Assembly: GCA_028288725.1 (NCBI GenBank)
Contig: JAQGIC010000035.1
Coordinates: 1-64,000 of the forward strand
DNA: 64,000 nt
Direction of reading: 5' to 3'
Source of the DNA: Rhodospirillales bacterium
Lineage (GTDB): Bacteria; Pseudomonadota; Alphaproteobacteria; ATCC43930; CGMCC-115725
Part shown: positions 17,845 through 19,200 of the stretch, one piece after another
Layout of the letters: each line of letters starts with the position of its first letter
Position numbering within the stretch: position 1 is the stretch's first letter
Translations under genes and position numbers: made by a program
The notes under the pieces: generated by a model
The model's input: the letters and a program-made list of their open reading frames with translations, nothing else
Databases searched by the model: none
What the model was told of the DNA's origin: nothing

Positions 17845-18564
17845 TCAGTGCCGGAACGTCACCACCAGAACGTCGCGATAGGCCGGCTGCGCCGGGTCGA
17901 GCGGTTCGACCGGCGTCACGCCGTGATAGACGCGATCATCATCGACCAGCGCCGAATCGAGCGGCTGGGTCAAAGTGAAGCTGCCGAGCGGTGCCCGGTC
18001 CATGTCATGGATCGTGGTCATGCCGCTGGCGATGTTCACGCGTGCGACCAGCAGGACCAGCACCCAATCGACGCCGTCGCGATGCAGCCCCTCGGGCGTC
18101 GGCCGGCCTTCCTTGCCCGGCTGCGCCTCGATGCGGAACTGATGCGCCTCGACATGCCAGGCGGCCGGCCGTATCTCCGGCGGCGTCAGCCCGTCGAACA
18201 GCTCGAAGCAGGACTGAAGGATGGCGACCATGACCGGATGGCCCGCAACATCGTCCCGGATCGGCTCGAACCAGCGGGCGAGGCCGCCGTTCAGCGGATT
18301 ATAGTCGCGACTTTGATAATGCGGCTGATGCGGCTTGCGCGCGATGCCCGCGGTCGACAGCTCGAACGCCGCATGCCGGCGCCGGCGATAGCGGCCGCCG
18401 TCGGCCATGTAGGTATCGAGCCCGAGATCGTTCCAGCTGTCGGCGAAATGCGCCCAGTCGGCGAGCCCTGCCCGCCGCAGGATGGCCGCCATCTCCTCGG
18501 CCTCGACAAATGCGAAACCCTGCTGTTTCAGCCCGGTGCCGACCGGTTGAAGAAGCCCGTCCAT
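17845..18564 (-). CDS. 2OG-Fe(II) dioxygenase family protein (2OG-Fe_Oxy_2 type)
   Basis: A 239-residue enzyme that resembles the non-haem iron, 2-oxoglutarate-dependent family typified by L-isoleucine 4-hydroxylase. The iron facial triad is visible as HRDGVDW (H161, D163) and VYHGVTPVEP (H214); an arginine for 2-oxoglutarate follows in YRDVLVVTFRH. Family knowledge suggests free amino-acid hydroxylation, but the substrate is not readable. The start at 18564 has GGAGG upstream and is preferred over an earlier in-frame start. No signal peptide. It stands alone, divergent from the flagellar-rod-like gene. Confidence 0.82.
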   Translation of the reverse strand: MDGLLQPVGTGLKQQGFAFVEAEEMAAILRRAGLADWAHFADSWNDLGLDTYMADGGRYRRRRHAAFELSTAGIARKPHQPHYQSRDYNPLNGGLARWFEPIRDDVAGHPVMVAILQSCFELFDGLTPPEIRPAAWHVEAHQFRIEAQPGKEGRPTPEGLHRDGVDWVLVLLVARVNIASGMTTIHDMDRAPLGSFTLTQPLDSALVDDDRVYHGVTPVEPLDPAQPAYRDVLVVTFRH

Positions 18565-18692
18565 GCCGCCTCCGAAGTTACGTCTGACGGAGATAAGCCT
18601 GGCCGAGTTCGGCCTCAACAGGGTCAGGCGATTTTCGCCACCCAGAATCGCGCGGCCGGCGTATGATCGGCCTGTGTGGAACGGAGACGATC

Positions 18693-19013
18693 ATGTTGGA
18701 TGGACTGGCGGGCGCCGCCGCGAACGCGCTGACCGGGATCGAGGCCGCGCAGAACAAGATCGCGACCGCCGCAACCAACATTGCCCAAGCGCCGCTCAGC
18801 CAGCAAACCACGCCGACGACCGCGCCGCCGCTGACCGGCGGTCGGCCGGGCAATGCCGCGGGTCAGGTCGGCCAGGCGCTGCAAGGCGCCGGCGGCGACC
18901 TCGCGACGAATCTCATCGCGGTCCTCGCGGCCAAGATCAGCTACGCGGCCAACGCCAAGGTGCTGGGCACGGTCAAGAAACTCGATCGCGACACGCTCGA
19001 CATCCTCACCTGA
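18693..19013 (+). CDS. Miniature flagellar rod/hook-like protein
   Basis: A 106-residue protein. The N-terminus (10-31, ALTGIEAAQNKIATAATNIA) resembles the start of rod, hook and hook-associated proteins (the LsGm-AAQ-Lx-AaNIAN pattern). The C-terminus (81-104, KISYAANAKVLGTVKKLDRD) resembles the Flg_bbr_C pattern sYxANakvlkt. The middle is a short Thr/Pro/Gly/Gln-rich linker in place of the usual large domain. Start ATG 18693 with an ACGGAGA ribosome-binding site. No other flagellar genes are nearby. The similarity was read by eye and needs a profile search. Confidence 0.65.
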   Translation: MLDGLAGAAANALTGIEAAQNKIATAATNIAQAPLSQQTTPTTAPPLTGGRPGNAAGQVGQALQGAGGDLATNLIAVLAAKISYAANAKVLGTVKKLDRDTLDILT

Positions 19014-19026
19014 TGCCGATGGCGTT

Positions 19027-19200
19027 TTAGCGTGCCATCGCCTCGATTTTCTTCGCCACCAGTTCCCACTGATGCGCGGCCGACATGCTGCCGCCGAGGC
19101 TGCTGTTCTCGGCCCGCTTGCGCGCTTGATCGGCAGCTTTCTTGCCGAACTGTTCGATGAGGGAGCGCGCGGCCTTCAACAATTCAATGTCTTCGCTCAT
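19027..19200 (-). CDS. Short conserved-looking protein, 57 residues
   Basis: An open frame of 57 codons from ATG 19200 (MSEDIELLKAARSLIEQFGK) to TAA 19027, ending WELVAKKIEAMAR. It is charged and probably helical, with no signal or membrane segment. It fills the gap between the rod-like gene, with which it converges 13 bases apart, and the RRM gene on the same strand. Composition and codon use look coding (G/C third positions, clean helical periodicity). Family unknown. Confidence 0.6.
   Translation of the reverse strand: MSEDIELLKAARSLIEQFGKKAADQARKRAENSSLGGSMSAAHQWELVAKKIEAMAR

Follow-up and report, generated by a model that had tools for sequence, protein, structure and literature searches.

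A miniature FlgC-like protein encoded apart from flagellar genes in a Rhodospirillales bacterium

The 64,000-nucleotide stretch of DNA analysed here in full (positions 1 to 64,000 of contig JAQGIC010000035.1, assembly GCA_028288725.1, Rhodospirillales bacterium; hereafter, the window) encodes a small protein, P0001, whose two ends resemble those of flagellar axial proteins, and which lies among non-flagellar genes. The locus raises the question of whether this is a real gene, to which axial protein its product is related, and what such a short protein could do in the cell. The most likely reading, as judged by sequence comparison, is that P0001 is a miniature stand-alone FlgC paralog, in which the terminal helices of the axial core have been kept and the FlgC middle has been lost. 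As to its function, we favor, with a probability of about 0.4, that P0001 would be a FlgC-derived exported accessory of the flagellar base or export system, and not a standard rod subunit.

The gene and its conservation

The open reading frame at 18693-19013 is a real gene, and the observation of an earlier note on this DNA is hereby confirmed (Table 1). Around it are found genes for an outer-membrane efflux protein, a PTS EIIA-2 protein, a trypsin/PDZ protease, a 2OG-Fe dioxygenase and an RRM protein, as well as a 57-aa ORF, and the entire stretch is collinear in G001, the sole other genome of the genus among those searched. The ortholog in that genome, P0003, has 119 aa and is 69% identical to P0001 in the local match. 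Between the two species P0001 is under purifying selection (dN 0.30, dS 0.77, dN/dS about 0.39; changes by codon position 32/20/46), with identities of 23/33 at the N-terminal end, 20/34 in the middle, and 28/39 at the C-terminal end. Compared over the same two genomes, P0001 evolves faster than the canonical FlgC (67% versus 120/136 identity). It is most improbable that we are dealing with a spurious frame of a GC-rich genome which matches axial proteins at its ends by chance; P0001 is indeed small, Ala-rich, and below threshold when searched alone, but the ortholog, the gene order, the codon-position pattern and a shuffle control (see below) contradict this explanation.

No other axial gene is present in the 64-kb window, which agrees with the earlier statement that no flagellar gene lies near P0001, and the genome's remaining PF00460/PF06429 matches fall on contigs C37, C136, C70, and C67. 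On plasmids, tblastn with P0001, P0006, and P0004 gave no matches, and a distant DNA search with the P0001 locus retrieved one record, covering the dioxygenase only. The adjoining 57-aa ORF, for which no Pfam match was obtained at E ≤ 0.01, is 96% identical in G001, though the miniature itself is only 67-69% identical. Upstream of P0001, at about 18620-18670, a block GATTTTCGCC-CCCAGAA-CGCGC is kept in the window and in G001 (L056) and is possibly regulatory; no basis was found for calling it a flagellar promoter.

Table 1. Features at the P0001 locus (positions in the window)
Feature	Positions	Strand	Basis
P0001, miniature FlgC-like protein, 106 aa	18693..19013	+	ORF translation, ortholog, codon pattern, HMM and shuffle control
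Possible ribosome-binding site GGAG	18683..18686	+	6 bases 5' of ATG; read from sequence
P0001 residues 1-33, N-terminal helix like FlgC/Flg_bb_rod end	18693..18791	+	4.6 bits with canonical FlgC HMM; ortholog above Pfam cut-off
P0001 residues 44-63, motif APPLTGGRPGNAAGQVGQAL	18822..18881	+	Common to the 151-aa paralog on C70, L101, and L148
P0001 residues 68-106, C-terminal helix like FlgC/Flg_bbr_C end	18893..19010	+	Profile matches
2OG-Fe dioxygenase (PF10014), non-flagellar neighbor	17845..18618	-	Order kept in G001
57-aa ORF, non-flagellar context	19027..19200	-	96% identical in G001

Relationship of the two ends to FlgC

When P0001 is searched alone, it reaches E 0.01 and 15.7 bits with Pfam Flg_bbr_C (PF06429; gathering score 23 bits) and has no match to Flg_bb_rod (PF00460; gathering score 20.7). 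The ends of the NCBIfam FlgE and FlgC models are matched at E 8.7e-5 (FlgE, the best NCBIfam match) and 0.0047, far below cut-off, with 17.2 bits for FlgC (TIGR01395) against a curated cut-off of 102.1. P0001 alone sits below all cut-offs; the evidence on the identity of both its ends is provided by the group. The ortholog P0003 exceeds the threshold of Flg_bb_rod (23.3 bits against 20.7) and stays below cut-off for Flg_bbr_C (20.5 bits, cut-off 23) and TIGR01395 (25.1 bits, cut-off 102.1). With an HMM of 31 canonical FlgC proteins, both ends of P0001 align (C-terminal end 11.0, N-terminal end 4.6, total 17.1 bits), the controls being 8.0 bits for the best of 5000 P0001 shuffles and 2.7 bits for the best other ORF of the window. 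The same HMM, run against the 467 called genes of 25 loci, gave 27 matches above 10 bits, which were 25 orphans (defined below), one FlgC, and one FlgB. Among 15 aligned relatives, Flg_bbr_C was matched by 14 and Flg_bb_rod by 5 at E ≤ 0.1, and 12 of 15 members of A2 matched TIGR01395 at E ≤ 0.01 (best 1.2e-24). Profile A7, made of 16 small proteins, finds the solved FlgC 7bin_V first, over both ends (E 3.7e-10), and FlgE next (3e-9); in hhalign of A3 against six FlgC, the alignment was at the C-terminal end only.

The proposal that a 106-aa protein carries axial-protein ends at both termini is thus borne out through the ortholog, the group, and the canonical FlgC HMM; neither of the findings that the earlier note named as refuting it was obtained, since profile matches exist at both ends (P0003, A7, and the same HMM) and those relatives that were read have both ends. 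The comparisons show, at the level of sequence, that FlgC, and not the rod/hook proteins as a whole, is what the small-protein group has its affinity to. The rod/hook-type likeness described in the earlier note stands as regards the axial ends, and the relationship is narrower, to FlgC (group profile, TIGR01395, and the paralog P0005 treated below).

Among known systems, FlgC (TIGR01395; e.g., 7bin chain V) is alike in both terminal helices and is the best profile match of the orphan group. Unlike FlgC, P0001 has no middle, is not encoded beside flgB/fliE, coexists with the canonical FlgC of its genome, and has no Phe at the position of Salmonella F49 (Gly under one alignment). Both Pfam ends, Flg_bb_rod and Flg_bbr_C, are recognizable in the group, with P0001 itself below both cut-offs. 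FlgE, FlgG, and FlgK have a C-terminal helix similar to that of P0001, but P0001 is without their hook or rod outer domains, and the group profile prefers FlgC, with FlgE close. Other axial proteins built as helix pairs are the type III needle and inner-rod proteins and FliE; these may be like P0001 in size and in a helix-linker-helix plan, as far as an AlphaFold2 model of P0001 with four relatives, of low confidence, indicates (predicted helices 2-31 and 55-105; mean pLDDT 49, pTM 0.35). No Pfam match of P0001 to needle or inner-rod proteins or FliE was obtained at E ≤ 10, and the ORF named FliE by eye in the host genome is separate from P0001.

The middle region and a longer paralog

A 151-aa paralog, P0005, is encoded on contig C70 of the same genome, adjoining pyrB/pyrC-like genes (named by eye). 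It matches the solved FlgC 7bin at E 1.6e-10 and Flg_bbr_C at 30.4 bits, above the gathering score of 23, and retains the FlgC middle stretch in the form YxPxxPxADxxGxVxxPNV. From P0001 this stretch (YxPxHPxADxxGYVxxPNV, as read from the alignments here) is absent, and residues of about 34-67 form a middle rich in T, P, G, A, and Q. The earlier description of a middle domain replaced by a Thr/Pro/Gly linker holds as to the missing domain, but part of the supposed free linker is a motif common to the paralog. This motif, APPxTGxxPxNAAxQVxQAL or close forms, is found in P0001/P0003, in P0005, in its G001 counterpart L101, and in L148 from G012, which is likewise without most of the FlgC middle. 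The motif in common suggests that P0001 would have arisen by shortening from the lineage of P0005, the longer FlgC-like paralog in this genome.

Distribution and genomic context of orphan FlgC-like genes

The orphan group was drawn as short proteins having both axial ends, distinct from the canonical flgC product of the genome, in a flagellated host, and P0001 answers this description throughout. By hand classification, 57 of 385 sampled alphaproteobacterial genomes carry such a non-canonical FlgC-like protein, a lower bound in which G313, G348, G160, G263, and G405 are among the weak, Ala-rich, or odd ones. The A1 search reached 59 of 385 genomes of the class at E ≤ 1e-3, many via the tails of long axial proteins, and the A7 search 209 of 385 at 1e-4, mostly via ordinary axial proteins. 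Candidates were read if most of the profile was covered in a short frame (20 genomes in the first round and 40 in the second, three of the 40 second-round candidates being canonical FlgC). A contig scan gave six loci, with miniatures at four (L073, L075, L076, and L077); L074 and L078 proved to be FlgE-like tails instead. In the phylum sample, 13 of the 18 similar proteins read come from genomes outside the class. In this sample (L224-L251), the similar proteins from other classes include ones of 97-101 aa, several with [YF]x6Q.

As called, the pooled orphans measure 72-191 aa, an upstream start being probable for the longest, and length is thus not conserved in relatives, a point on which the earlier note had sought a check. 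The smallest versions, of 72 aa (L212 8033-8251, minus strand, and L213 7952-8170, plus strand), consist of two helices with almost no linker. Versions of 87-91 aa are kept at one site in several related genomes, beside ffh-like/cinA-like genes (by eye).

In the second round, the stretch fetched around the orphan contained no reference flagellar gene at 33 of 37 loci, some stretches ending at contig ends. The four loci with flagellar genes all belong to family f43 (L180, L181, L183, and L187), and in each the orphan lies 3-8 kb from flgB-flgC-fliE-fliQ, in opposite orientation to the cluster. In the first-round context set, one of 14 orphans (G072) adjoins flgE, and the G108 contig is 4.5 kb long; a further 10 non-canonical loci had their context read by eye, the orphan of G328 being 11 kb from flgC on the same contig. 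Orphan FlgC-like genes are widespread, little noticed, and mostly without flagellar neighbors, and no publication on orphan or miniature FlgC relatives was found in the open-licence PMC literature.

A tree was computed from 31 canonical FlgC and 35 longer orphans, with FlgB outside and miniatures such as P0001 left out. Canonical FlgC forms one clade (100/100) that excludes all 35 longer orphans, thus the latter are not recent copies of the flgC of their own genomes. The longer orphans do not form one clade, with deep forks that are weak, based on few columns, and with a bootstrap that had not settled. A single origin of all orphans was considered and is not supported by these groupings.

Flagella in the carriers and the fate of orphans

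The host genome is flagellated: it encodes FlhA, a canonical FlgC, and, on C37 and C136, additional axial proteins (profiles served to find the FlhA, PF00460, and PF06429 genes; other names of flagellar genes and neighbors were given partly by eye). Four genomes of its own family (G008, G009, G011, and G024) had neither Flg_bbr_C nor orphan matches. On the question of flagella in relatives, raised in the earlier note, FlhA was detected in 220 of 385 genomes: 50 of the 57 orphan carriers have it, compared with 170 of the remaining 328 genomes (Fisher p 1.7e-7, in a test that ignores relatedness). Among the seven FlhA-negative carriers, five (G010, G072, G108, G351, and G161) carry further Flg_bbr_C genes, and G264, which is 70% complete, shows only the orphan. 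G010 was dropped as a carrier without a flagellum, since it has flgB, flgC, flgF/G, flhB, and others (by eye, PF06429). The searches of G412 (97% complete) for FlhA and Flg_bbr_C (PF06429) gave no match, yet this genome has a shortened FlgC-like orphan of 105 aa (L188, 7996-8313, minus strand), at the site of the 144- and 179-aa FlgC-like orphans of its FlhA-positive relatives G246 and G335. This case gives direct evidence that genes of this kind can persist, and become shorter, after the flagellum is gone, and counts against the reading of P0001 as an exported accessory.

The G412 orphan fits the view that P0001 is a decaying remnant, a FlgC-like duplicate shrunk by deletion that is being lost and has no present function, as do the length continuum, the weak profile scores of P0001 and its faster change relative to canonical FlgC. 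We nevertheless consider decay somewhat unlikely, given a frame that is open and a gene order that is kept in G001, the dN/dS of the pair, the conservation of both ends, and the retention of the 87-91 aa versions at one site. The survival of the orphan in G412, together with the 33 loci without flagellar genes, could also point to a non-flagellar function, for which the helical pair would have been recruited in its housekeeping gene contexts. The association of orphans with FlhA across genomes, the proximity of all four f43 orphans to a flagellar cluster, and the G072 orphan adjoining flgE make such a function quite improbable.

The Salmonella F49 position and export signals

For Salmonella FlgC, one study (PMC9307174) reports that changing F49 to K, R, D, Q, or G prevents assembly, and that the F49Q protein is secreted at least at the wild-type level, is not assembled, and leaves cells non-motile. 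According to the same study, residues 6-14 matter for secretion, the N-terminal end is the stronger secretion signal, and FlgC-Bla and FlgB-Bla fusions able to assemble are inhibitory to the assembly of basal bodies.

At the position that we read from our alignments as equivalent to F49, Phe is found in 31/31 canonical FlgC, and the 35 longer orphans have Q (24), A (6), S (2), L (1), or a gap (2), with no Phe in that alignment. The pattern [YF]x6F, looked for independently of alignment, is present in 31/31 canonical FlgC and 1/35 long orphans. [YF]x6Q is found in 24/35 long orphans (mean 7.1 and maximum 13 in 200 shuffles), in 6/30 miniatures (shuffle mean 1.4, maximum 5), and in 4/31 canonical FlgC. 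For P0005, L101, and L148 the assignment of this position is uncertain, as pairwise alignment places a Phe there; by such alignment P0001 has Gly and P0003 has His. The P0001 sequence has no Phe at all. The earlier suggestion of a protein that still assembles is not supported, given the replacement, in the longer relatives, of the residue class that matters for assembly of Salmonella FlgC according to the study above.

The gate-type motif FxxxI/L/V is absent from P0001 and from 15/16 A7 members and is found in 6/6 A5 FlgC, so that P0001 would miss one of two early export signals. This absence, and that of any Phe in P0001, would suit a cytoplasmic decoy or regulator, in which a non-exported D0-like helical pair binds the export gate or rod subunits. 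The inhibitory Bla fusions of Salmonella, as described in PMC9307174, suggest that axial look-alikes can be inhibitory. We hold a decoy to be distinctly unlikely, as P0001 keeps the N-terminal end, which for FlgC was the stronger signal for secretion in that study.

Proposed role and implications

In the favored reading of P0001 as an exported accessory, the protein would leave the cytoplasm through the flagellar type III system via its FlgC-type N-terminal signal region and would not replace FlgC in the rod. It would serve, in low copy number, as an accessory of the flagellar base, in the periplasm or at the rod base, and may there tune the assembly of the rod or of the export gate. The interpretation in the earlier note is, overall, partly supported. 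Regarding the solitary FlgC paralogs of flagellated Pseudomonadota more generally, it is conceivable, though rather doubtful, that they form a long-overlooked set, with the miniatures as its extreme, that has kept the export signal and lost the rod-assembly residue. Its members would then be exported to a task away from the rod itself, such as that of a secreted factor, or of a brake or checkpoint in rod assembly. The parts list of flagellar axial proteins is treated as closed. If this proposal is true, a recurrent set of unlinked FlgC relatives, retained by flagellated genomes, would constitute a class of flagellar export substrate or regulator that is absent from this list, and the position that differs in the orphans would be one that separates secretion from assembly in Salmonella FlgC. 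It would also show how small an axial protein can become and what stays under selection when it does.
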